Shown in pieces: positions 5,054 to 29,888 of a stretch of DNA of 29,888 nt; the stretch's first letter is position 1; every line of letters begins with the position of its first letter. Source of the stretch: a virus. The translations under genes were made by a program, and so were the position numbers. The notes below the pieces were generated by a model. The model did no database searches, was not told where the DNA came from, and saw only the letters and a program-made list of their open reading frames with translations. The stretch lies in IMG/VR virus record IMGVR_UViG_3300020401_000063, positions 1-29,888 of that record; one strand, given 5' to 3'.

Positions 5054-6730
5054 ATGACTAGTTATTTTCAAGAAACTGTCGTGCCTATTCTTCAACCAGT
5101 CTTTGAAGACAACCAGACGTTCAATCACAAACGTAGCAAAGCGAGAGCGGCGCTCAAAGAAGTTCTGAATGAATTTTGTGACGGAAAAGTTATGGTGGAG
5201 GCCGCACAAGCGGGGTTTGATAAGTGGGAGAAATCTCCAAACACAATCAGCCAGATTGTGAACAACGTATCAGCACCCATGACATGCGTTGTATGGTGCG
5301 TACTGTTTTCTCACAACCACGATTTTGGTGGTTCCGATTGGCTCAAATCTCACTTGCACGACGCACTGAGAAGACCTGACTCTTGTCATAGAGGACGTGA
5401 CAACAAGCCAGTGTATTTGATGCACAAGTTCATTGACGAAGACGTGATGACACAAGTCTCAGAATTGCTCGACGACCAATACAACTTGGACTTGTCGTTG
5501 ATTACAAGTTCAATAACGCAACCTGAGCCGACCGAGACGCCAGTCATGGAAACATCGCCGCATGCCGATGATGCAGGACTGAACGACACAATGCGAGCGG
5601 CCGTGGACTTGATGCTCAAAGATACAAAGCACGGAAGTTTGGGGAGCATCGAGCATGTTATCGAAATGCAAACCGACAAGATTGCAGACCTTGAGGACGC
5701 TCTTGCCAAGGCCGTATCGCAACCGAAGATACACCAACCCGTCAGCGTTCAAGCCACTGGAGAGATACCAAGCGGCACTGTCGTTGTGAAGAAAGCTACG
5801 GACGTGTTCGAGGGTACGCAAGCACCACTGTTTGACATCGACGTCCCTGTCGGTGAGTGGGATGCTCCGCATCCCTTTGTGCCACAGAAGGATGAAGACT
5901 ACGTCTTCAATGCTGACACGCTGGTTCCGTTGCTTGTTGCTATTCGTGACGGGCAAAACCCATGGCTCAAGGGTCATACTGGCACAGGCAAAACGACGCT
6001 TGCTGAACAGATTTACGCACGTCTCAACTTGCCAGTGTATCGTGTCAACTTGGATTCGGATATCACCCGTGGCGAACTTGTCGGCCGCGAGGTGCTGACC
6101 ACCAAGGATGGTAACACTGTGACCAAGTTTGTGGATGGTGTTATCCCGAAAGCAATGCAAGAGCCATGCTTGCTGTTGCTCGACGAGGTCGATGCCTCAC
6201 GTCCCGACCTGGGTTTCGTGTTGCAACGTCTCACCGAGGGCAACGGCTTCATGCTTTTGGAAGATGGCGGTCGCACAATCCAGCCACATCCATTCTTCCG
6301 TATCTTTGCCACTGCCAACACTAATGGTCGGGGTGACGATACTGGTCTGTACTCTGGTACTCGTGCGTTGGGCGCGGCCTTCATCAACAGGTTCAAACCC
6401 TACATTGATGTCGAGTACATGCCAGCAGATGAGGAGCGCGCGTTGCTCAAGACGAAGGTCGGTCTGAACGATGATGATGCCACGACCATCACGAACTATG
6501 CGACAGAGCATCGCGTATCATTCATGCAAGCCAACCTTACCCTGCCTTGTTCTCCAAGGGACACTATGGCTCTGGGTATGGCCTACCTTAACTATTCGCG
6601 TTTGTTTGCACACAAGTCCCGTGCGGAGATATGGGAACTTGCGTTCCATCACACGCTTGTCAATGCCGCTGACGCTGACGATGCGACAGTCATTCGCGGG
6701 TTCATCAATCGCATCATCGAAGGAGAGTAA
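5054..6730 (+). CDS. cobS-like: CobS-like AAA+ ATPase (MoxR/CobS clade)
   Basis: This 558-residue protein has an N-terminal 270-residue region that I do not recognise. It ends in a CobS-type AAA+ core. Walker A is GHTGTGKT at residues 307-314, and the segment NLDSDITRGELVGR follows about 20 residues later. Walker B is LLLLDEVDASRP, with sensor I in FRIFATANTNGRGDDTGLY. CobS is the ATPase of aerobic cobaltochelatase, and CobS-like proteins occur in several marine phages. Without a CobN, a role in cobalt insertion is unlikely; such ATPases more often remodel a partner through a VWA protein. The next gene encodes exactly that partner, starting 1 bp after the stop. The start has GAGG 7-8 bases upstream. 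Confidence 0.88.
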   Translation: MTSYFQETVVPILQPVFEDNQTFNHKRSKARAALKEVLNEFCDGKVMVEAAQAGFDKWEKSPNTISQIVNNVSAPMTCVVWCVLFSHNHDFGGSDWLKSHLHDALRRPDSCHRGRDNKPVYLMHKFIDEDVMTQVSELLDDQYNLDLSLITSSITQPEPTETPVMETSPHADDAGLNDTMRAAVDLMLKDTKHGSLGSIEHVIEMQTDKIADLEDALAKAVSQPKIHQPVSVQATGEIPSGTVVVKKATDVFEGTQAPLFDIDVPVGEWDAPHPFVPQKDEDYVFNADTLVPLLVAIRDGQNPWLKGHTGTGKTTLAEQIYARLNLPVYRVNLDSDITRGELVGREVLTTKDGNTVTKFVDGVIPKAMQEPCLLLLDEVDASRPDLGFVLQRLTEGNGFMLLEDGGRTIQPHPFFRIFATANTNGRGDDTGLYSGTRALGAAFINRFKPYIDVEYMPADEERALLKTKVGLNDDDATTITNYATEHRVSFMQANLTLPCSPRDTMALGMAYLNYSRLFAHKSRAEIWELAFHHTLVNAADADDATVIRGFINRIIEGE

Positions 6731-6731
6731 G

Positions 6732-8741
6732 ATGAAACATATTACTGGCGACAAACTACAGCACGAGGTTATCAAAACCTCTCAGGCGTTCTATCGTGAC
6801 CAAGATATCAGCGTCGAGTTTGGTGGCGAGACTGCCATGACGAATGGCAAGAACGTCATCATCCCAAGCGTTCCGCTTGACCACAACTTCACGCTAGACG
6901 AAGCCGCGGTCATCCGTGGCTTTGTTGACCATGAGGCAGGTCACGGCCGCCATACCAACTTCAACATCTCCAAACGCAACAAGACCATCAAAGCTGACAT
7001 GGCAAAGTATGAGCATTACATGCCCATCACCAATGGCATCGAGGACGTTCGCATCGAGCGCTTGATTGTCAAGGAGTATGTCGGTGCGAAGGCCAACATT
7101 GCTCATACCAGTGCATATGCAAACAACATGTATCTCGAACTGTATGAGCAAGACCCAAGCATTGCCAAAGACATCGGTGCAGTCGGTGCTGTTGCTATCA
7201 CATGGGAAGGCCGACGTCGCATTGGCTACGCTGACCCGACCTTGGAGAAGTGCTTGGACACGTTGCCCGACAGTATCCGCAAGTCTGTTGAGGGTGTGGT
7301 TGACCGCATCGACAAGTGCAAAGACACCAAGGGTGCGTTCATGCTGGCCAGAGACGTGCTGAAAGAGTGGGGTCTCGACAAAGAGAAGCCCGAAGGTGAC
7401 GAGCCACAGGATGGTAACGAGAAGCAAGACGGGGACAACGGCCCTGATGGTGGCGGACAGGAAGTCAGCACAGCACCAACCAAGACCAATGCCGAGACGT
7501 CAGACGATGAAGACGCCGAACAGCCAGACAACGGCGGCGGAGCAGGCAAGCCAGGTGACGGCGGTGAGGACGACGGCCCAGACGTAGTTGTCCGCGCTAC
7601 CGAAGAGGCTTTCGGCAAAGACCAGACTGGCAAGGGTGAAGGCCAAGGCGGTGGCTGGGGTATCGGTGATGGTTCTGGTGACAGTTCCAAGCCAGCACGC
7701 CCAGCGATTGAGGTTAACCTTGAGAAAACGCTTACCAACATCATACCTACAGGTCGTTCCCGTGGGTACACAGTGCTGTTCGGCGGTGACGACCAGCATG
7801 TCAGACCCGACAGTGGTGGCGTTCTTTCAGAAAAACTCAACGAGAAGACGAGAGAAGCTAAACGTCTTGGCAGGTTCTCCAACATTGTCGAGGCGTCAAG
7901 CGGACACACTAATCGTATGAGACGTAAGATGGAACGCGCCTTGCAATCCAAGATGGAGCGCACTTGGCGTGGCGGTCACGAAGAGGGTTCGCTGAATGGC
8001 CGCGCTTTGGCAAGCGCGTTGTCAGGCAACCAAGCTATCTATCGCAAGCGAAGCGACATCGAGGAACTGGATACATGCGTTACCCTGCTTCTCGACGCAT
8101 CGTCTTCTATGTACGGACGTCGTGCCAAACTTGCGACGCAGTCCGTTGTCGCTCTGTCCAAGTTGTTTGACAAGATGAACATACCTTTCATGGTTGCCTG
8201 CTTCAATGTTGATGGCATGCACATGGCGCACCCAAGACGCAAGCACGGCTGGTATGAGAAGAGGTGGGAAGAGTATGGTGACAAGCATGGGTATGACAAC
8301 GCGTCTAATGCACGTGCCTACCCAATTACAGTGTACATGCTTAAAGAGTTCAGCGATTCACTGAAGACTTCACAGCATCGTATTGCGGCGTACCAAGAAA
8401 TGGTGAACGGCTCCAACATTGATGGCTGTGCGATACGTCAGGTCGCTGACCAGTACCTGTTGCCTCGCCCTGAGAAGAAGAAGATATTGATGACGTTCTC
8501 AGATGGTCAGCCATGCGGCGGTACTGGCGAGTACGGTCGCCTTTCGGAAGTTGTCAAATCTCTCACGGGTGAGGGTGTTGACTGCGTTGGCGTGGGTATT
8601 CAGACGGACAGCGTGAGTCAGTTCTATCCGAATTGGGTTGAGGTCAGAGACCTTGAGGACTTGAGCAAGGCGGCAATGGACAAGATTGCCAAGCTATTGA
8701 TGGGCAAACGCTTCAAGGTCGATTCACGTGACGCGGCCTAG
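6732..8741 (+). CDS. cobT-like: CobT-like VWA protein with HEXXH metallopeptidase-like domain
   Basis: This 669-residue protein is the likely partner of the CobS-like ATPase; GGAGAG precedes the ATG. The N-terminal part carries VDHEAGHGRH, with HEAGH at residues 67-71, a zinc-metallopeptidase signature. EDVRIE at 104-109 may give a further metal ligand. A long acidic, Gly/Asp-rich low-complexity linker spans about 220-330. The C-terminal VWA domain has the MIDAS motif DASSS at 455-459 and a later MTFSDGQP strand. In CobT and related MoxR-partner proteins the MIDAS ion bridges the ATPase to its substrate. The combined zincin and VWA arrangement suggests an ATP-driven protease or remodelling system rather than vitamin B12 synthesis. 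The VWA call is confident; protease activity is an inference from the motif. Confidence 0.85.
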   Translation: MKHITGDKLQHEVIKTSQAFYRDQDISVEFGGETAMTNGKNVIIPSVPLDHNFTLDEAAVIRGFVDHEAGHGRHTNFNISKRNKTIKADMAKYEHYMPITNGIEDVRIERLIVKEYVGAKANIAHTSAYANNMYLELYEQDPSIAKDIGAVGAVAITWEGRRRIGYADPTLEKCLDTLPDSIRKSVEGVVDRIDKCKDTKGAFMLARDVLKEWGLDKEKPEGDEPQDGNEKQDGDNGPDGGGQEVSTAPTKTNAETSDDEDAEQPDNGGGAGKPGDGGEDDGPDVVVRATEEAFGKDQTGKGEGQGGGWGIGDGSGDSSKPARPAIEVNLEKTLTNIIPTGRSRGYTVLFGGDDQHVRPDSGGVLSEKLNEKTREAKRLGRFSNIVEASSGHTNRMRRKMERALQSKMERTWRGGHEEGSLNGRALASALSGNQAIYRKRSDIEELDTCVTLLLDASSSMYGRRAKLATQSVVALSKLFDKMNIPFMVACFNVDGMHMAHPRRKHGWYEKRWEEYGDKHGYDNASNARAYPITVYMLKEFSDSLKTSQHRIAAYQEMVNGSNIDGCAIRQVADQYLLPRPEKKKILMTFSDGQPCGGTGEYGRLSEVVKSLTGEGVDCVGVGIQTDSVSQFYPNWVEVRDLEDLSKAAMDKIAKLLMGKRFKVDSRDAA

Positions 8742-10315: not shown

Positions 10316-11323
10316 ATGCTAAACATTGTAAAACGTAACGGCGTGTATCACGCATCAGGCACAATCAATGGCGTTCGTATACGCAAGTCACTTAACACTA
10401 CGGACAAGAAAGTCGCCAAGGCGCTTGTCCAAGAAATCGAAATCGACACGGCGGTCAACAAAGCTGGAGCCAATCACACGTTTGGCGACGCTCTTGATAG
10501 CTACCTTAGACGTAACCCCGACCCGTCGGATACTACCTGGAAGTACCTGGCCAAGTTTGGCCAGGCGTGGGGAGACGTACCGCTTTCCAAAATCAACACT
10601 GAGTTTATTGAAAACTGGTTGGACACACGGCTCGGCAAAGTGAGTGGGTCAACAGCAAGACGAGAGATGAATTGTTTTATGCCAGTGCTACGTCATGCAA
10701 GCATGCGTGGCTGGATTGCAGACGTTCCGTCAGTCCCTCGGCCCGATGATGGCGAACCCAGACTTCGCTACTTGAACGACAAAGAATATGACCTGTTGTT
10801 TTGCACACGAGACGACAGTATTGCTTGGCATTTAGCGCACATACTTGTACACACGGGCGCGCGATTAGGGGAGATTGTTAACTTGCTGTGGGGCAGTGTG
10901 GTGCTTGACTGCAATGACCCATATGTCCAGCTTACAACACGCAAACGGAAGCACGGCCGTAAATTTACAAGACAGGTTCCGCTCAACGGCACAGTGGTTG
11001 ATACATTTAGGTCTATGGCAACAAAGTATCCGACCGCCCCAGATAATAGAGTGTTCCCAATGTGGGCCGACCAAAGGTCGGCTGGCAGAGAAGTAAAAAA
11101 ATTGGCTGCGCTGGTAGGTATCGAGGACTTCCGTCCCCACGACCTTAGACGTACATTTGCTACGCGCCTGCTCAATGCGGCAGTGAACCCCCGTACCGTT
11201 GCAGACCTACTTGGCCACACCGATTTGACAATGGTCATGCGTTATATGGTTCCACCAGACGAACTCAAACGCTCCGCTGTCGAGTCACTGTCAAAAATAA
11301 ACAGCGACTCGATTGGTGTCTAG
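10316..11323 (+). CDS. int: Tyrosine recombinase / phage integrase
   Basis: This 335-residue protein is of usual length for a phage integrase, with ribosome site GAGGAAG. It begins with an Arm-type N-terminus (VKRNGVYHASGTINGVRIRKS) and a SAM-like core-binding domain at about 52-140. The catalytic domain carries R183 (HTGARLGEI), H275 and R278 (HDLRRTFATR), H301 (LGHTDLTMVM) and the nucleophile Y310. All the key residues are present, so it should be active. It would recombine phage attP with a bacterial attB. The gene ends at a terminator lying inside the opposing gene's 3' end. Its presence indicates a temperate life style or an integrative origin. Confidence 0.95.
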   Translation: MLNIVKRNGVYHASGTINGVRIRKSLNTTDKKVAKALVQEIEIDTAVNKAGANHTFGDALDSYLRRNPDPSDTTWKYLAKFGQAWGDVPLSKINTEFIENWLDTRLGKVSGSTARREMNCFMPVLRHASMRGWIADVPSVPRPDDGEPRLRYLNDKEYDLLFCTRDDSIAWHLAHILVHTGARLGEIVNLLWGSVVLDCNDPYVQLTTRKRKHGRKFTRQVPLNGTVVDTFRSMATKYPTAPDNRVFPMWADQRSAGREVKKLAALVGIEDFRPHDLRRTFATRLLNAAVNPRTVADLLGHTDLTMVMRYMVPPDELKRSAVESLSKINSDSIGV

Positions 11324-13533: not shown

Positions 13534-14292
13534 TTACCCCCTGCGTCCTTCGTTGTGAGGAAACCACTGGATTAATAACCAATAAGGTATGTCTACCAAT
13601 CCGAGACGCGCACTTTGCGCGTTCTCGTGATGCGCGTTGTGGTATTGCTCAGGCGAATAAATCGCGGCCATCAAATGATTTTGCGGCATCCACTTCCAAT
13701 GGCCAGTGTACACACTGGCTACTTGGTGTCCGACCACAGTAAGGTATACAAAGCACCACTCAGAAAAACCAAACAGGGATACAAATAAGAGAGCCGTCGT
13801 AATTGAAAGCGGTATGTAATATTTATGTTGAGCGCGGTACAATTTATTTCTAAGCAGGTCTCTTACATACTTCACTCGCGGCGGTATAAAGCTGACGTTT
13901 AAGTTGTGCCAAATAGAAAAGTGCGGGCCATGTGCATCCTTCTCTGTGTCTACATGAGCATGGTGTTGGCGGTGTATAGCAGACCACTGGATTACTGGGG
14001 CTACACCAAGACCACCAGACGTAGACGCAAAAAATATATCGAGCCACCTGGGACACTCCCAGGACTTATGGCAGACGTAGCGATGGACGTAACCAGACGC
14101 AAGAATTTGAAACGCAAGAGTGCCTGCGATATACCACCAGAGCAGTGACCAGTTACCTACAATCAACAACTCATGCAGAACTACGACCGAGCAAAAAACA
14201 CCGACACCCATCAGTATAGACGCAAGTCGGTCATTCATTTCGCCCAGAAAGTAATCTACTTTTTCTTGCGCTTTTTTGATGAGTTTCCCCAA
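13534..14292 (-). CDS. Membrane fatty acid desaturase (acyl-CoA delta-9 type)
   Basis: This 252-residue membrane protein has all three histidine boxes of the acyl-lipid/acyl-CoA desaturases: H70-RYVC-H75, H107-RQ-H110-H111 and H218-NA-H221-H222. HRQHHAHVDTEKDAHGPHF is the delta-9 desaturase signature after box 2. Hydrophobic helices flank the boxes (about 27-46, 50-66, 160-190). It would insert a cis double bond into acyl chains in the host membrane using a di-iron centre and host electron carriers. It is about the size of the short bacterial DesC-type enzymes. The gene lies in the middle of the late operon, 37 bp overlapped by the upstream small gene, so it is a true phage gene and a likely auxiliary metabolic gene. 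Confidence 0.9.
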   Translation of the reverse strand: MGKLIKKAQEKVDYFLGEMNDRLASILMGVGVFCSVVVLHELLIVGNWSLLWWYIAGTLAFQILASGYVHRYVCHKSWECPRWLDIFFASTSGGLGVAPVIQWSAIHRQHHAHVDTEKDAHGPHFSIWHNLNVSFIPPRVKYVRDLLRNKLYRAQHKYYIPLSITTALLFVSLFGFSEWCFVYLTVVGHQVASVYTGHWKWMPQNHLMAAIYSPEQYHNAHHENAQSARLGLVDIPYWLLIQWFPHNEGRRG

Positions 14293-21435: not shown

Positions 21436-21643
21436 TAATAACGTCAACAAGCCCCCTCACTACACGAGCGGCGATATCGAATGTATTCACGCCATAGAGT
21501 CGGCGCTTACTGAAGAGGAGTTTCGCGGTTACTGCAAGGGTAACGCGCTAAAATATATCTGGCGCTCTGGCCTCAAGAACGATGCAAAAGAAGATATACA
21601 AAAAGCCCAGTGGTATCTGGCAAAACTATTGACCGTTATTTAG
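21377..21643 (+). CDS. DUF3310 protein (T7 gp1.7-like domain)
   Basis: This encodes 88 residues from the ATG that lies 9 bases after AAGGAAG; a TTG two codons earlier is possible. VNKPPHYTSGDIECIHAIES, then FRGYCKGNALKYIWRSGLK and DIQKAQWYLAKL, is the DUF3310 domain, nearly full length. The domain is widespread in phages and is present in T7 gp1.7, which has been described as a nucleotide kinase. Whether this short form has that activity is unknown. It ends the rightward operon and overlaps the stop of the convergent giant gene by 8 bp. Confidence 0.88.
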   Translation: MKKKKANTEEKPNIWDSSASNNVNKPPHYTSGDIECIHAIESALTEEEFRGYCKGNALKYIWRSGLKNDAKEDIQKAQWYLAKLLTVI

Positions 21644-24600
21644 GTTTTGCCCAGTTCTGCATAAACGAACTTTTTGGGATGGTTCGTTTTTTCGGCCCAG
21701 CGACTGCGTCTACAATACCACTTCTTACGTCTCGATACCCACCTAGAACAGGTATTCGTGTGGCGGCTATCCTTGCCGCTTGGCGCTGTTTGTAGTTCTC
21801 GTCGCTGAATACGCCTTGTCCAAAGGTAATTCCATCCATTACCGCCCCAGCAGTTGGGCCGCCAAAGACAGAAAGTATTCTTTGCGCGCCATATACGCCG
21901 TTATCGGCTTGCTCTGCTGTCTGATACAAAATATCCGCAAACAATCCAAGTCCACCCATTTGCACCATGCCCTCGATATACCAGCCCATAAACTTATCAG
22001 CGTCTATGCCATAGACTTCTCCGTGCAATCTGGCGTCCCAGCCCATAGACTCAGCTATTTGATTAAAAGAGCGGTCGCGAGGTTGCCTGGTGTCATCTTC
22101 GCCACGAGCTTGGACGTAGTCTTTTATAAGGTTTGCGCCAGCGCCCCCCGCAAGCGGGGCGACTGTCGCGAGCATCAGGGCTGGCGATATACGTCTACCT
22201 CCGCCAGTCATTGGGTCCGCAGTTACAGCTAGACGTCCAGCGTCGTAGCCCATCCTGCTCATCATTAGCGGGAATGATTTAAGCTGGAATATAAGTTGCC
22301 CTATAGGGCTTTGCGCTAACAGCGGTATATCATTTGCGTTGGGCGTAAATATTGTTTGGTTAGAAAACTTGATGATAGCTTCTTGCACCCTTTGTTTCGC
22401 GTCTGCTCTTTGCGGGCTGTCGCTGGGGTCGGGAATGAAGCTATCAAAGTCATCTATTCTTTGGTTTGTTGCGAGTAGCTCGTCTAATCCGTAGGCTCGC
22501 AGAATACGATATGCACTTTTAAATTTTCTATTTTGTTGCGCTAAATCTAGGCGCGGGTTGAAGTTCGTAAGCGCAATAGCGTACTCGGCTTTGAACCATT
22601 CGTGTCCAACAGCGGAAGATGCACTGCGCCAGAAACCAGTCCATGGAGAAAGCAGAGTAGCGTTAAAGAAAGCGACTGTGTTGCGTGAAGAGTCTGCACC
22701 GTACAGGCCAGTCATGCGTTCGTGTATCTGGTTCTCTAATGCCGCCCCAATATTGCGTGTCATCTTGCGATAATGCGGGTTTGTCATGTATTGACCCAGA
22801 CCTTTGGTAAACGCTTTAAGGCTACCAGAGCGCACGAGAGGCAGAATCATGTCACCAAAAGATGTAAAGACCGTAGAGCCAAGTAAAGTAATCGCGTTGA
22901 AATTACGCATTATTTTGGAAGTCCTGTGGCCGTAGTCTGAGAATATACCGTATCCAGCCATGCCCTTACGCTGTAATGAATCCAAAGTTCCCTGGGCAAA
23001 TCTTTCTTTGTTTCTGTCCAGCGGGCCATTCATGTTTTGACGGTCCAAAATAGCTCCAATAATTGCGTCTATTCTTTTGCTGAAAGCAGGCTCGCCGCGG
23101 GCAGTGTCGAAGCTATCCATAAACTGACGCATGGCAACCTCGCCCTTGGACGCCAAAGCGATAAGTTGTTGAGCGGCGCGCTGGGCCGCCACTTCGTCGC
23201 CTTCAAATGGCATGCGAGACTCACGTCTAATCTCCAACTTATCGTCAACGTAATCAGTTTGTGCGTTAACAATAACTTTTTTGGAAACTTTCTTCTTGGA
23301 AAGAAGCTCACCAATAGCAGTAGCCATATCATTTGCCGCAACCACTTTCATGTAGTCATGGAAACCGTGCATTTCGTTGCCATACTTTTCAGCCAAGTCA
23401 ATTCTACGAACTGCGTTGTCTGCATACTTACTTATGATTGCTTCCAAATCATTCTCAAGATACTGGCCGACATCGTCGAGATGTTCTTTAAACTCATCGA
23501 GACGTATGAGGCGCTGGTAATCTATATGGTCTCCAGAATTTTCGCGTGCGGACGCCACCTCTGGCGGCGTATAAACACCGTCTTCTTCAACTAAGCGTCT
23601 ATACACTGAATCAGCTTTCGCCAAAGCCGTATCAATAGTCAATGCTTCGTCCCTGAATCTTTCTCCTTCCGAGATAAAGTATCGGGCCAAAGACAGTTTG
23701 AAGTTTTCAGGGTCGCGCAATATTTTTTCTACGCTCCACACCTGCGGAAAGTAATCTTTTACAGTGCCAACCATGACACCAGCCTCGGTAAGCTCGTAGT
23801 GAATGTTCCTAAACATCTCACGTACTTTTTTGTAAGCAAACCTTTCGCCAGCATTGAGGTTTTTAACGGCCTCTGACTCAGGGCCGCGCCTAACGGCATT
23901 TACAATTTTTAGGTAAGAGCGTGGCTGGTCAACACCCAAGGCATGGTGGATGCCGTATTTGCCAATGTTAAAATCGCTTGCTTTACGTAACCAGTTTTTT
24001 ATTCCCCCTCCGCCCTGAAGTCCTGCAAGAGCCTCGAATATTGGTGATATATGGTTAGACGTACGTGCGGCTAGACGTTCGTAGTGACCCGTACCCTCCA
24101 TGCGTGCAGGAGCAATCCAATCTGCGAGCCATGTAAGTCCGAAACGTCTAAGGTTATGAGAGTTCTCACCAAACCCTACATTGAAAGCTCGACGTATTGC
24201 GCTTTGCTGTCGGCCGTTTGGCAGTTTACCGCGCGCCATATTGCCAATACCAGCGGCCGCGTTTGCTGACACTCCAGCGTCTCGCAACTGCTCTTCCATG
24301 GTTACAGTCTGGCCTTCGTTAAGCTGTCCTTGTTCGGCCATTGTATTAATGATACGAGCGTTGGTTCTTGATACCTCGTCTTTGTTATATATGTACCCAA
24401 CACTGTCTCGGCTATCATCAAACTCACCCGCCATAGCATGCTTGATATTGTTTTTATCTTCAAACATAAGGAACATTGTTTCAGACTGACGTTCTTCGTG
24501 TCCCTTTAGTCCATCGTAGCCAATGTCCTGCAAGACTTTGTTTAATTTTGTCGAAGCGTTTGCACGGGATATTGGTCGGCCCGTTGACCGCTGAGTCGCG

Positions 24601-27600
24601 TCCATGATGGCGTCAATGAACTCCATGTGCAGGGCGTCGCCAGTGATGTAGCCGCGTGACTCAATCATGTTAACGGCTGACTGCACGTCAACAGCGTCAC
24701 GAGTGTCCAAGCCAGCCATAATCTGCCGTATTGCTGGGATATCATCTAAGCCATAGTCTCTATCTATTGTGAAATCAAAGAAGTTGGCCTTGCCCAAATA
24801 TACAGGATGATATCTTGGCTTAGGCAAGACGTTAAACTTCTTTAACATGTCGTCAATTTGGTCTTCCACGACACGCTTGCTTACGTATACTTCATCAATT
24901 TGTTTATCATAGTGCAAGCCAGCAGGAAACTCGGCTGTGCTTGTTTCTATGCTGTTAACTTTTCTTGCTTTCAAAGTCATAATTGTATCGTCCATTATGT
25001 CTTTGATTTCTAACAAGTCATTGAAGGTATCAAGGTCTGTGTCTGTTGCCCCGCCGTCACGCAACGGGCCAGTCAAAGATTCATAGTATTCGTCCTGGGT
25101 ATTTTGTGTAGCAAGTTGCCTTACCATGATGCCGTTTCCGTATCTATCATGGCGCATAATCTGAGGCATTAGACCCCGCTCTCCCAGCACGTGCGGGCGC
25201 TTACCAGCTATATCCACTGTAGAAAGAATGTATAAAGGCGGCGGGTTGTTCGGGTCTGTATTACCTGTAAATGCGTTGATGGCATCCTTTCTGTTTTGGC
25301 TAGAGTTATTCCAAAACGCCTCTGTTGTTCTTTTCATGCCAGTCAAGTCACCTGTAGCCTCATCATCGTACCGACTTGGGTAAAAGATTTTGTCAATGTT
25401 GGGCGTAATTCCCTCTGAGTGAGAGTAACTGGTAAACACATTTCCATACGCGTCAAGCGAGGGATGCGCTTGTTTAATTCTTTTGTCCATCTGCCCATTT
25501 AGTATGTACGCCACGTGCTGTTTTACAGTGTGGACAAATGGGTCTAGGTTTTCGTTCGGGTCTGTGCCAGCCATATTCTTTGATGTTTTTACAACTAACT
25601 CACGAAGCGCAACGTCCCAATTTTCTTGAGTTATGGCCTTACCCTGACCGCCCTGAGCCAAAGTTCCAAATGTTCTCCGCCAAAGGTCTCGATGCAGTGT
25701 TTGGGTTGGGTCCATTATCACAACCGCTGTAATAACATCCTGCACGACAGCTTTGGCATTTTTTTGGCCTACTGCGCCTTCGGATTTAGGCGAAAGATTT
25801 GTAGCCAGACTGCGTAATTTTTTTCGTAACTCAGAAAACTCTGGGCTATCTATGTCAATCTGTTCATCTAGGTAATTACTAGGCGCAATACTTGGTGTGG
25901 CACTATTTGGGTCTTGGATGTCTATACGTCTAGCTACATCGTTGACGTCGCTCACACCCATCATTGCCAAATGTATGCGATTGGTCGGCCGAGGCGCGCC
26001 TGTTAAGTTTGCCAAGCGATAGAATACCGTACGCATGATATTCATTTTATCAGGGTCACGATGGCTTAGTTTTTCCTGAGCAACATTAAGACCAGCCCTA
26101 GCCCCAGGACTAATTGTTGTTCCAGAAATACCCTGCGTTTCAGCAATCTCCATTTCGATAGCACCCAAAGTTACTTGGCTGTCTATAAGCTGTGGCTCAA
26201 CCTCATCTGAAATTGGGTGAGCGCGCTCGTTTTCTTTCATTTGACGAGCGACTTGCTTGCCATAATCGGTTTCACCGTATTTTCCTAATTCATCAGCAAG
26301 CTGTGTGGGCGTTGCAGTTCTGTAGTTAATCGCTTGCCCATCATCTATTTGAGCAACAGTCGGAGATTTGTTTGTTCTTGCAACATCAGCGTTTTTTCTT
26401 GTTTCCTTGGTAATTTTATCCTGTTTGCGTTGTTTTTTGCGCTTACCATCCCGCAACTGCTTAGAGTATTTTGCGTACCCTTTAAGCTCTTTTTTAGGGG
26501 CAAAAGAAATACCTGCATACCCGCCCTGCATTTTGATAGGTTCGTCTGATAACTCGTTAAACTTTTTACGAGCATCGTTAATTATGATTTCAATAAGCTC
26601 GCTAGTTTCAAAGCGAGGGTCTCCGTCTTCTGTTCGGTTGCCATAGACGATTTGAGTAATTCTTTCTGCATCTTCTGTTACGTTGCGAGAAACAGCGTCG
26701 TAACTAAACCCTAAATTTTCAGCATCAGAAACACTAAGGGTGCTTACGTCCCGACCCATGGCGGCGTAAATTCTTTGGTATAAACTTTGGGCAAGTTTGT
26801 GAGTTCTGCCAAGTAGCATGAACGGCTTACCAGACTCTCCATATTGGTTGCTTCGTGCTTGTTCTGGGGCGGCCAAACCATACAGTCTATTGGCCAGCAG
26901 TTGAGCATTAAACACTATGCTGTCGTCATTACCACTTATCACTGATTGCAATAATTCTTCGTGGTACGAAGTTAACTCTTCCACCACACGATGCAACGCC
27001 TTACCCGCGTCTGTGACTGGCTCCATCACGCCTTCGTGTAGAGCCGCGGCTTGCAGATTGTCTGGCAGGATTTTACTAAATAAGGGAACCAAGTCAGGGT
27101 CGATGTTTTTCTTATTAATAAAGAAATCCACGAGACTTTTAACGTATCTTGCTATCTGCCTCATGTGACGACTTTTGTTCCAAAAACTATCCTGCCTAAA
27201 CTCTGGAGCAAGCCTTTCGTTCATGGCCCAAGACGCAAATTGATTAGCAAACCATTCTTGCGGGCTGTCCATAGCGTTGGTGGTTTCTCGCAACTCCCCG
27301 CCATAGATAAATGTCCCAGCATGGTCTGCCCGTCTCTGAAAATCTGGTGCTATGCGAACTCCAGGCTCTTCTCCCATGTTGAACATAGTTTGAGCCAACT
27401 TCATTTCGCGCACTGTGCCAGATTCTTGGTCTATGTACTTTTGGGCAGTGTTCCAAAAATTTAATTTATCTTCGGGTGTTAAGATATTTTTGTATGCCCA
27501 ATGACCAAGCTCATGCAACGTGACGAAAAGACTTGGTTTTACACCTTCATATCTTGTCAGTTCTATTTGATTAGTTCTTTCTAGCGGATTTCGAGAGGCG

Positions 27601-29888
27601 CTTGCATTAATAAGTCCGTCACCCTCGCCCTCTATAAATCCTGGGGCCACGTCATCAGCAGACTCTGAAAGGGTTCTAAGAACCCTGTTTAGCTCTGCAA
27701 GCTCTGCCTCAGATTGAATCCTGCCAATCGCCTTCAATTCTTTTTGTGATTGCGCGATTGTCTTGCCAGGATATCTTACATCTTCGGGAACAATAGAAGA
27801 CCTGAACGTCTGCAATCCTGCAAAAAACTCAGCATAAGTTTTTTGCATATCCCCTTGACCGACACGCGGCCAACCAACGCTCATTTCAATATAATCTATA
27901 GCATTTACAAAAGTTAATTTATCTACTTCGCCAGCTTTTTCTACTAAGCCGTTCAACAGTACATTGACATCATTTCTTCTGTCTCTCGGCAGAGGCATCT
28001 CATCTACTAACGACCTCAAGCCATCTATTTCTTCAACAAATTTTGTGGGTGACAGAGGCACAACCTGTTGAGACGCTTGTTGTGCCGTCAGATATGGACG
28101 GCTAATTTTATTTGGAGACCAAACCTCGAACTCTTCCGTAGCGACCTGGGAGTTGCGAGCGCCTTTCGTGTGACCAATTTCAAAATCTTCTATGTTTGCT
28201 TTGCCAAGCAAAGCCTCGATGCCCTTACCTTCGTCAATCTGGTTTTGCCCTATGACGCGTATCTTGCCTGTCTCTTTATTTCGCAGAGCAAGTCGCTTGC
28301 CATTAGTGCTTAATACAGGGACGTCTGGAATGTCTGATGCAACTGGCGTAAGACTGTTTTTGCCAGTTTGTTTTAGCGCTTGAGCGAACGCTCGCAAGTC
28401 ACCGTCTTCGTCAAACTGCGCCCTTGCTGTTTTTATAATGTCTTTATCCGCGCGCACTGGTACATCTGTGGATGTGTAGTGCGTTTGATTTGGCCCTTCA
28501 CCACGAGCCATACGCATGTTTGCTTCGTGCTTGTATGCCTTGTTGGTTATTGGGTCGTAAAAATACGTCTCACCTTTTTTTGCATGCTCAGGCTTAATAA
28601 TATTTTTCTTGCCGCCCGCCCTCGGAACTAGCGTTCCTTGGCCGTCGGCAATACGCTCACCGCCCGTCGAGACGTAAACCTGGACACCCGTATTTGGCAC
28701 AAGCCTTGTTTTTGTTTGCACGACCTCGCGCATAGCATTTGGGTTTTCGTCAGTTGGCGCTGGCACGTCAAAGCGTACTTCGTATTCTTCTTCGACCAAC
28801 TTATTTGCCGCGGCCACAGCGTTGTCGTAGCCGTAAATAGTTTTAGTGTCAGGGTCTAGCCCTTCTGGTACTGATGGCGCGCGCCCAATAAATTCGCCAC
28901 GTTTTAGGAAGCTCTGTATTCTGTTAAATGTGCTTCTGCCAGCGGTAGTTTCGGTTGGTGGGTTAGCAAGCGTTCCAGTTAAATCGCCGCTAGTTTTTTC
29001 GATTGGCTTGCCGCGCTCCTTCAGCACCCTTACGACAGCGGCAATCCTTGCTGTTGGTTCTGGCAAACCATTAGCCATCATATTTTTAGTAAGTTGTTTT
29101 ACTTTCTTTTGCTCTGTGCCTGTTAGCTCAACATTGCCTTGTATATTATCTTTATTAAAAGTTTTTCCGACCGTATCTTCGTCAACCGCTTCCATAAGCT
29201 CATTGAAAATACGCTCACCCTGCTCTGGGTCTTTTTTGATAAGGGCTAACCTTGCAACGTCTGGAGCTTGTTGGAGTATCTGACCGAACATTCCGTCAGT
29301 TTCATCGTCTAGCTCTTGTAAAACTTTTTCTGCGCGGGCTGTGTATGTCGTGTCAGGTGTTGCCCCTGCTTCGACGTCATCAAATTGTGTAAGAGCCTTA
29401 ACTAGATTGGGTCGTTTTATTTGTTTTATTGTTCCATCTTTTGATACAGGAATAGTACCATGGGCTATAGCTTCGGCTAAATCCTCTTCTGTTTTGCCAA
29501 GCTGTGATAAGACGTTCGCCACAGCCTGTCTTTGATTTTCGCTTCTATAATTAATTGTATCTGGCGTTAGCGGGCGTATTGGCCCTGCGGCTTCTTGTGG
29601 TAACGAAACAGCGGACTGGTCATCTGGAAGTCTTACGATTATTGCTCCGCTAGTTTTGTCTCGGTAGCCAGGTAGCAGAAACTCTCCGTCCTCCATATAA
29701 ACAAACTCAATAGGCGAGTCGTCTACTGGCTTCGTACTGTCTGGTTCAACACCAGTTTCTGGCGCTGTTGTTTCTGGCTCTACTACTTCGACAGGTTGAG
29801 ACGTAGCTGGCTCTGCCGCAGGCTGGTTGCCTTTGGACGCAATAACAGCGCGCACGTCTTTGACATTATATTTTTTGCCGCCTTTTGT
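21636..29888 (-). CDS. Giant virion-associated polyvalent-type protein with zincin motif (N-terminus outside window)
   Basis: This frame encodes at least 2750 residues and stays open to the right edge, so its start is not visible; a GTG at 29855 is only an internal candidate. Numbering from that GTG, the first 60 residues are Pro/Glu/Thr-rich. HELGH at 781-785, in a VTLHELGHWAYK context, is a zinc-metallopeptidase motif. A segment ending IGYDGL near 1778-1782, then TMFLMFEDKNNIKHAMAGEF, resembles the end of ADP-ribosyltransferase or toxin-like domains in large polyvalent proteins. The C-terminal 350 residues hold hydrophobic stretches and resemble an LPD38-type domain. Such proteins are packaged in the virion and injected with phage DNA to counter host defences and modify host proteins. 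It could also be a structural ejection protein. No virion RNA polymerase motifs were seen. Confidence 0.8.
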   Translation of the reverse strand, partial: TKGGKKYNVKDVRAVIASKGNQPAAEPATSQPVEVVEPETTAPETGVEPDSTKPVDDSPIEFVYMEDGEFLLPGYRDKTSGAIIVRLPDDQSAVSLPQEAAGPIRPLTPDTINYRSENQRQAVANVLSQLGKTEEDLAEAIAHGTIPVSKDGTIKQIKRPNLVKALTQFDDVEAGATPDTTYTARAEKVLQELDDETDGMFGQILQQAPDVARLALIKKDPEQGERIFNELMEAVDEDTVGKTFNKDNIQGNVELTGTEQKKVKQLTKNMMANGLPEPTARIAAVVRVLKERGKPIEKTSGDLTGTLANPPTETTAGRSTFNRIQSFLKRGEFIGRAPSVPEGLDPDTKTIYGYDNAVAAANKLVEEEYEVRFDVPAPTDENPNAMREVVQTKTRLVPNTGVQVYVSTGGERIADGQGTLVPRAGGKKNIIKPEHAKKGETYFYDPITNKAYKHEANMRMARGEGPNQTHYTSTDVPVRADKDIIKTARAQFDEDGDLRAFAQALKQTGKNSLTPVASDIPDVPVLSTNGKRLALRNKETGKIRVIGQNQIDEGKGIEALLGKANIEDFEIGHTKGARNSQVATEEFEVWSPNKISRPYLTAQQASQQVVPLSPTKFVEEIDGLRSLVDEMPLPRDRRNDVNVLLNGLVEKAGEVDKLTFVNAIDYIEMSVGWPRVGQGDMQKTYAEFFAGLQTFRSSIVPEDVRYPGKTIAQSQKELKAIGRIQSEAELAELNRVLRTLSESADDVAPGFIEGEGDGLINASASRNPLERTNQIELTRYEGVKPSLFVTLHELGHWAYKNILTPEDKLNFWNTAQKYIDQESGTVREMKLAQTMFNMGEEPGVRIAPDFQRRADHAGTFIYGGELRETTNAMDSPQEWFANQFASWAMNERLAPEFRQDSFWNKSRHMRQIARYVKSLVDFFINKKNIDPDLVPLFSKILPDNLQAAALHEGVMEPVTDAGKALHRVVEELTSYHEELLQSVISGNDDSIVFNAQLLANRLYGLAAPEQARSNQYGESGKPFMLLGRTHKLAQSLYQRIYAAMGRDVSTLSVSDAENLGFSYDAVSRNVTEDAERITQIVYGNRTEDGDPRFETSELIEIIINDARKKFNELSDEPIKMQGGYAGISFAPKKELKGYAKYSKQLRDGKRKKQRKQDKITKETRKNADVARTNKSPTVAQIDDGQAINYRTATPTQLADELGKYGETDYGKQVARQMKENERAHPISDEVEPQLIDSQVTLGAIEMEIAETQGISGTTISPGARAGLNVAQEKLSHRDPDKMNIMRTVFYRLANLTGAPRPTNRIHLAMMGVSDVNDVARRIDIQDPNSATPSIAPSNYLDEQIDIDSPEFSELRKKLRSLATNLSPKSEGAVGQKNAKAVVQDVITAVVIMDPTQTLHRDLWRRTFGTLAQGGQGKAITQENWDVALRELVVKTSKNMAGTDPNENLDPFVHTVKQHVAYILNGQMDKRIKQAHPSLDAYGNVFTSYSHSEGITPNIDKIFYPSRYDDEATGDLTGMKRTTEAFWNNSSQNRKDAINAFTGNTDPNNPPPLYILSTVDIAGKRPHVLGERGLMPQIMRHDRYGNGIMVRQLATQNTQDEYYESLTGPLRDGGATDTDLDTFNDLLEIKDIMDDTIMTLKARKVNSIETSTAEFPAGLHYDKQIDEVYVSKRVVEDQIDDMLKKFNVLPKPRYHPVYLGKANFFDFTIDRDYGLDDIPAIRQIMAGLDTRDAVDVQSAVNMIESRGYITGDALHMEFIDAIMDATQRSTGRPISRANASTKLNKVLQDIGYDGLKGHEERQSETMFLMFEDKNNIKHAMAGEFDDSRDSVGYIYNKDEVSRTNARIINTMAEQGQLNEGQTVTMEEQLRDAGVSANAAAGIGNMARGKLPNGRQQSAIRRAFNVGFGENSHNLRRFGLTWLADWIAPARMEGTGHYERLAARTSNHISPIFEALAGLQGGGGIKNWLRKASDFNIGKYGIHHALGVDQPRSYLKIVNAVRRGPESEAVKNLNAGERFAYKKVREMFRNIHYELTEAGVMVGTVKDYFPQVWSVEKILRDPENFKLSLARYFISEGERFRDEALTIDTALAKADSVYRRLVEEDGVYTPPEVASARENSGDHIDYQRLIRLDEFKEHLDDVGQYLENDLEAIISKYADNAVRRIDLAEKYGNEMHGFHDYMKVVAANDMATAIGELLSKKKVSKKVIVNAQTDYVDDKLEIRRESRMPFEGDEVAAQRAAQQLIALASKGEVAMRQFMDSFDTARGEPAFSKRIDAIIGAILDRQNMNGPLDRNKERFAQGTLDSLQRKGMAGYGIFSDYGHRTSKIMRNFNAITLLGSTVFTSFGDMILPLVRSGSLKAFTKGLGQYMTNPHYRKMTRNIGAALENQIHERMTGLYGADSSRNTVAFFNATLLSPWTGFWRSASSAVGHEWFKAEYAIALTNFNPRLDLAQQNRKFKSAYRILRAYGLDELLATNQRIDDFDSFIPDPSDSPQRADAKQRVQEAIIKFSNQTIFTPNANDIPLLAQSPIGQLIFQLKSFPLMMSRMGYDAGRLAVTADPMTGGGRRISPALMLATVAPLAGGAGANLIKDYVQARGEDDTRQPRDRSFNQIAESMGWDARLHGEVYGIDADKFMGWYIEGMVQMGGLGLFADILYQTAEQADNGVYGAQRILSVFGGPTAGAVMDGITFGQGVFSDENYKQRQAARIAATRIPVLGGYRDVRSGIVDAVAGPKKRTIPKSSFMQNWAKPK

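Follow-up and report, generated by a model that had tools for sequence, protein, structure and literature searches.

The viral gene pair and the question it raises

Is a gene pair resembling cobS and cobT in a virus a vitamin B12 pair or a protein-processing machine of another kind? This question is raised by a stretch of viral DNA of 29,888 bases (IMG/VR record IMGVR_UViG_3300020401_000063, positions 1 to 29,888; hereafter the window). It encodes a CobS-like AAA+ ATPase (5054–6730, + strand, 558 aa) and, immediately downstream, a CobT-like protein (6732–8741, + strand, 669 aa) with a von Willebrand factor A (VWA) domain. Viral cobST has already been described as widespread (PMC8651126), and the new point is the N-terminal HExxH domain of viral CobT. 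Viral CobT is best read, from sequence comparison and structural modelling, as a putatively zinc-competent relative of cobaltochelatase CobT. On balance we lean towards the pair being a MoxR/VWA-type machine, an ATP-driven zinc metallopeptidase or remodeller, in which the zinc site and the cleavage are putative and the mode of action is drawn from analogy. The observed basis consists of the gene pairing, the domains, the motif conservation, the predicted fold topology and the profile similarity to peptidase families.

Both open reading frames are genuine and lie on the same strand. The gap between them is a single base, as an earlier note on this DNA had it: the TAA stop codon of the ATPase gene occupies positions 6728–6730, and the ATG of the CobT-like gene starts at 6732. 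A ribosome-binding site, AGGAGA (6721–6726, + strand), is read in the sequence within the end of the ATPase gene, just before its stop. A frame or start-codon artefact was considered and rejected because of this clean ribosome-binding site and the full-length homologues. Co-transcription of the two genes is inferred from their spacing; predicted sigma-70 promoters and terminators flanking the pair did not exceed the chance level.

The N-terminal domain of viral CobT

The N-terminal zincin-like domain comprises residues 1–212 (6732–7367, + strand). It contains HEAGH (residues 67–71; 6930–6944, + strand), a putative zinc-binding and catalytic motif, and NGIEDVRIE (residues 101–109; 7032–7058, + strand), in which D105, or E104, could be the third zinc ligand. 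The earlier note's positions for HEAGH, for EDVR (104–107) and for DASSS in the VWA domain (455–459) were all exact.

Conservation was assessed in 49 non-redundant viral CobT homologues with a median identity of about 21%. HExxH is intact in 42 of the 49, where the pattern DHExxH...NxxED is retained; most viral homologues have DHExxH together with NxxEDxRIE. Columns 67, 68, 71, 104 and 105 rank among the best conserved of the domain. D105 is present in all 42 homologues with HExxH and in two of the seven without it (Fisher p 1e-5), and its N-x3-D-x2-I register is that of DUF2201. The cyanophage proteins annotated as "peptidase" belong to the same family and carry HEVGH. A chance occurrence of HExxH was rejected, since the motif is conserved too widely.

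Cobaltochelatase CobTs differ in this respect. HExxH is absent from all 80 Rhizobiales cobaltochelatase CobTs (the position reads S-M-A-L-R/K), and canonical CobTs possess the same segment without the ligands (DSMALR...VEQ). In a wider sample of 40 CobT-bearing Pseudomonadota genomes the motif is lost in 38, kept in one and unreadable in one. The CobT-like protein that keeps it (locus L188, 5055–7280, + strand, bacterial genome G021) reads HECGH...NCLEDPRVEAR.

In the AlphaFold model of the domain (predicted local distance difference test, pLDDT, 95; predicted template modelling score, pTM, 0.90), strands at residues 27–30, 41–44 and 52–54 precede a helix at 55–74 containing HEAGH and a helix at 96–115 containing N101, E104, D105 and E109. 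A zincin arrangement is thus seen in the model: after a beta-sheet comes the HExxH helix, followed by a later helix with E104/D105. This predicted layout is that of the gluzincin-type zincins.

Comparison of profiles by hhalign aligned the viral domain with DUF2201_N, a domain whose annotation is that of a putative metallopeptidase; the 75 aligned columns include both motifs, which are in register (P 6.6e-5). The score was 33.6, against a maximum of 23.6 in 200 column shuffles, and the same alignment persisted after masking of HExxH (P 0.004). The depth of the DUF2201 profile matters: a single sequence did not match the viral domain, five matched weakly, and deeper alignments matched. A match to M48 peptidases was likewise obtained for the viral domain (P 3e-5) but not for canonical CobT (P 0.057); the N-terminal domains of viral and canonical CobT matched each other (P 2e-8). 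Since it matches both canonical CobT and the DUF2201/M48 profiles, the viral domain bridges cobaltochelatase CobT and the peptidase families. Canonical CobTs form a single clade with full support in an unrooted tree. Loss of the zinc site in canonical CobT is the simpler direction, because both peptidase families carry the site. The earlier note's placement of HEAGH in a zincin-like domain is therefore borne out by the conservation of the motif and of the downstream N-x3-D, by the predicted topology, by the similarity to DUF2201 and M48 and by the negative contrast of canonical CobT.

Several results weigh on the other side. A Foldseek search of the PDB with the N-terminal domain gave no significant match of any kind, and hence no zincin. 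Shuffling with the HExxH columns fixed gave a DUF2201 score as high as the observed one in one of 200 trials, and the association of D105 with HExxH was not significant in tree-aware pairs. HExxH has been lost in 7 of the 49, spread over several lineages, which means that catalysis is dispensable in some members. The Pfam search of the domain returned no peptidase family, and neither PF13203 nor PF09967 (DUF2201) matched the window protein at E values up to 1, which confines this relationship to the profile level. Foldseek against a viral library retrieved phage CobT and VWFA proteins, including one from a haloarchaeal virus.

The losses of HExxH bear on a second explanation, that of a non-proteolytic remodelling chaperone, in which ring and VWA protein would remodel a client like NorQ/NorD or RavA/ViaA and the HExxH domain would be a structural or metal-binding module for client recognition. 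The best-studied MoxR/VWA pairs are chaperones (PMC9976466; PMC3893208), canonical CobT functions without HExxH, and several viral CobTs have lost the motif while keeping the rest. Against such a role, E68, at the position of the catalytic base, is no less strictly conserved than the ligands among the motif-intact members, and the domain resembles peptidases rather than a chaperone module. This explanation is considered possible, though rather doubtful. The viral CobTs that lack HExxH and retain the VWA domain and CobS (L008, L009, L148, L135, L112, L121 and L144) are natural inactive controls.

The VWA domain and the CobS-like ATPase

Assignment of the 669-aa protein to the CobT sequence family is clear. 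PF06213 (CobT, 7e-16) and PF11775 (CobT_C, 3e-22) both exceed their curated cut-offs (bit scores of 58.9 against 26.1 and of 79.9 against 21, respectively), and a gene for a CobS-type AAA+ protein lies 1 bp upstream. An acidic Gly-rich linker, recognised by its composition (about residues 213–330; 7368–7721, + strand) and varying widely in length among homologues, separates the two domains. The VWA domain (residues 437–657; 8040–8702, + strand; PF11775 2.7e-22) overlaps a match to solved CobT (9uka_G) over residues 389–656. Its metal ion-dependent adhesion site (MIDAS) has the DxSxS sequence DASSS (residues 455–459; 8094–8108, + strand), and D455, S457, S459 and D591 are invariant in nine homologues. 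The earlier note had called this MIDAS complete; DxSxS is there, and so is the third Asp (D591, in SDG), whereas at the Thr position the sequence is N-I-D, which canonical CobT shares.

The ATPase belongs to the MoxR/CobS clade (AAA_5 3e-18; phrog_249 5e-60; solved CobS 9ujv_A 4e-52 over residues 260–505), and its matches include CobS, midasin, NorQ and CbbQ. As a clade 7 AAA+ protein paired with a VWA protein, it forms a MoxR AAA+/VWA couple with its neighbour, and homology to solved CobS and CobT upholds the VWA/AAA+ pairing read earlier from the sequence. Walker A, GHTGTGKT (residues 307–314; 5972–5995, + strand), includes the invariant G307, G312 and K313, and Walker B (6170–6187, + strand) ends in the invariant D377-E378. 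Across 32 viral CobS proteins the Walker, sensor and Arg residues G312, K313, D377, E378, N422, R446 and R502 are invariant.

The ATPase begins with a helical N-terminal region that has no family match (about residues 1–206; 5054–5671, + strand). Its first 175 residues are variable and poorly modelled by AlphaFold (pLDDT mostly below 70). An unrecognised part thus exists, as the earlier note held; it ends near residue 205 and not at 270, since the match to the PHROG CobS model begins at 207 and that to solved CobS at 260. Selection of the client by this region is possible but unsupported.

CobN and the vitamin B12 question

Viral cobST has been proposed to hijack the CobN of the host (PMC8651126). 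As an auxiliary B12 module, viral CobS and CobT would join host CobN and speed cobalt insertion. Homology to cobaltochelatase CobS and CobT is clear, some members occur with ribonucleotide reductase, and cyanobacterial hosts can have CobN, as the Synechococcus elongatus control does. For aerobic cobaltochelatase (CobNST), however, CobN must be available, and none was found in the window, in five complete viral records or in the E. coli control genome. The pair occurs in phages and phage-plasmids of E. coli, Klebsiella, Salmonella and Vibrio; phage PhiR41_1, whose host is E. coli K-12, encodes a CobT with HEVAH beside CobS and DNA polymerase III. Moreover, the conserved HExxH-D site is missing from the CobTs of CobN-bearing genomes. 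A role in cobalamin synthesis is therefore judged unlikely.

The window is a fragment, so its lack of CobN alone would be weak evidence; the complete relatives lack the gene too, which sustains the statement of the earlier note that CobN is absent. Its view that the pair does not serve cobalt chelation is probable, given the absence of CobN from the tested viral records and the retention of the HExxH-D domain. The viral pair is thus most likely not a cobalt chelatase; the hosts of other members may have CobN. The "peptidase" annotation of cyanophage cobT was called mistaken (PMC8651126), and in view of the HExxH-D domain in these sequences the label may be apt.

Among the 40 CobT-bearing Pseudomonadota genomes, CobN is present in 33 and absent in seven. 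Among the controls, Caulobacter vibrioides encodes a PF06213 CobT and gave no CobN match. Even canonical CobT may, in view of these genomes, have a CobN-free role.

Related systems and a possible mechanism

Cobaltochelatase CobS/CobT (PF06213, PF11775; structures 9ujv and 9uka) shares with the window pair the two-domain order of CobT, the CobS ATPase core and the adjacency of the genes; it differs in that canonical CobT has no HExxH-D site and in that the tested viral pairs lack CobN. The viral cobST of CRP-810, Cobavirinae, ICP2, SSU5, Rhizobium phages and T4-like cyanophages ("CobS" and "peptidase") is of the same family and pairing and differs in having been described as B12 genes.

A zincin-like N-terminal domain, a C-terminal VWA domain and an adjacent MoxR-type ATPase are also found in the DUF2201 (PF13203 and PF09967) metallopeptidase-VWA systems, including N4-like gp24/gp25, and DUF2201 proteins share the motif register HExxH...N-x3-D-x2-I. 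The difference lies in the window protein matching neither of these two families and having a VWA domain of the CobT type. In 563 phage records there is a protein with similarity to a DUF2201 metallopeptidase-VWA protein. An annotated ATPase adjoins the DUF2201-VWA gene in all four N4-like loci examined, and both N4-like proteins scanned with Pfam contain DUF2201_N and DUF2201. N4 gp24/gp25, homologues of this pair, are listed as core genes without known function (PMC4193335). The N4-like DUF2201-VWA protein with its MoxR ATPase is an independent, parallel pair. The homologues of N4 gp25 in three loci (L193, L194 and L196) are publicly annotated as "HNH endonuclease"; the Pfam scan of the one in L194 returned DUF2201_N and DUF2201 only.

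In the MoxR/VWA chaperones NorQ/NorD and RavA/ViaA, too, a VWA protein accompanies an AAA+ ring (PMC9976466); they are chaperones or metal-insertion factors and are described without a zincin domain. In NorQ/NorD the VWA domain sits as a plug in the AAA+ ring, and the client is bound by MIDAS at an acidic patch (PMC9976466).

On the model of NorQ/NorD and CobS/CobT, the CobS-like protein would form a hexameric AAA+ ring; the CobT-like protein would dock on it through its C-terminal VWA domain, which would hold the client via the MIDAS metal. ATP hydrolysis could then strain or open the client, and the N-terminal zincin domain, on its flexible acidic linker, could cut it by means of HEAGH and D105 or E104. 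Cobaltochelatase CobT would be a relative that has lost the zinc site. In a broader and more tentative form, for which the odds fall somewhat short of even, viral "cobST" would be a widespread AAA+-powered metallopeptidase of one superfamily with DUF2201/MoxR (N4 gp24/gp25) and not a B12 pair, and cobaltochelatase CobT would have descended from such a peptidase-VWA adaptor after loss of the zinc site.

Distribution, gene neighbourhoods and the client

Relatives of the CobT-like protein were found in 46 phage and 995 plasmid records; among the plasmids, many are about 110 kb long and non-mobilizable and resemble known phage-plasmids. For CobS relatives the count is 513 phage records, most of them of cyanophages. 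A CobS gene lies close to CobT, on the same strand and in either order, in 59 of 66 viral loci, and six of the remaining seven are truncated at the locus boundary. The pair had been regarded as unusual in the earlier note, a view that this distribution and the published description (PMC8651126) do not allow.

In annotated relatives the pair is mostly located within a few kb of genes for replication and recombination (DNA polymerase, ligase, primase, gp46, gp45/gp44), by inspection of the loci and without a background count. A primase-polymerase is encoded about 8–9 kb from the pair in both the window and CRP-810. These gene neighbours make a component of DNA replication or recombination, belonging to either the host or the phage, the most likely client; it is the leading guess, and a late role in virion assembly becomes less likely.

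A metal-loading machine could be considered as well. It would supply a metalloenzyme of the phage or the host, for example ribonucleotide reductase, with its metal, the HExxH-D site being the carrier. The relatives NorQ/NorD and CobS/CobT serve metal insertion (PMC9976466; PMC8651126), and ribonucleotide reductase is close to the pair in one relative; yet no partner enzyme is constant across the neighbourhoods, and the HExxH-D site resembles peptidases. Such a function is quite improbable.

The anti-host, anti-defence and virion-assembly roles suggested in the earlier note found no backing. A MoxR/VWA pair of an archaeal virus has been linked to tail assembly (cited in PMC7159879), whereas in most annotated relatives the present pair stands among replication and recombination genes and not among structural genes; no defence link was found, a defence library being outside the search. 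A virion-assembly or anti-defence device is thus highly improbable.

Other features of the window

The closest annotated relative of the window is CRP-810, a Roseobacter phage with a complete genome of 57.7 kb; a scan for further CRP-810-like CobTs revealed no additional ones. The common gene order is cobS, cobT, integrase, primase-polymerase, AAA/Sak4-type protein, PD-(D/E)XK (Cas4-like) nuclease and a very large protein, which adjoins internal virion proteins. The tyrosine integrase of the window (10316–11323, + strand; PF00589 2.5e-23) has a site-specific integrase as its counterpart in the same place in CRP-810, and a temperate lifestyle is therefore possible. The very large protein of the window (21636–29855, − strand) is a 2739-aa open reading frame without a Pfam or PHROG match; it occupies the position of CRP-810 gp35 (about 2016 aa), the neighbour of "internal virion protein D". 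A fatty-acid-desaturase-like protein (13534–14292, − strand; PF00487 1e-6, slightly below the cut-off) is unusual for a phage.

Implications

The module is real and widespread, and its usual B12 label in viruses is probably wrong. Viral cobS and cobT have repeatedly been counted as cobalamin auxiliary metabolic genes in papers on virus ecology. If viral CobT is a peptidase-type protein acting where CobN is absent, many of these claims would need revision, and many viral "B12 genes" may in fact encode proteases or protein remodellers driven by ATP. The same reading, if true, would provide a testable function for N4 gp24/gp25 and would explain the origin of the non-catalytic N-terminal domain of cobaltochelatase CobT.

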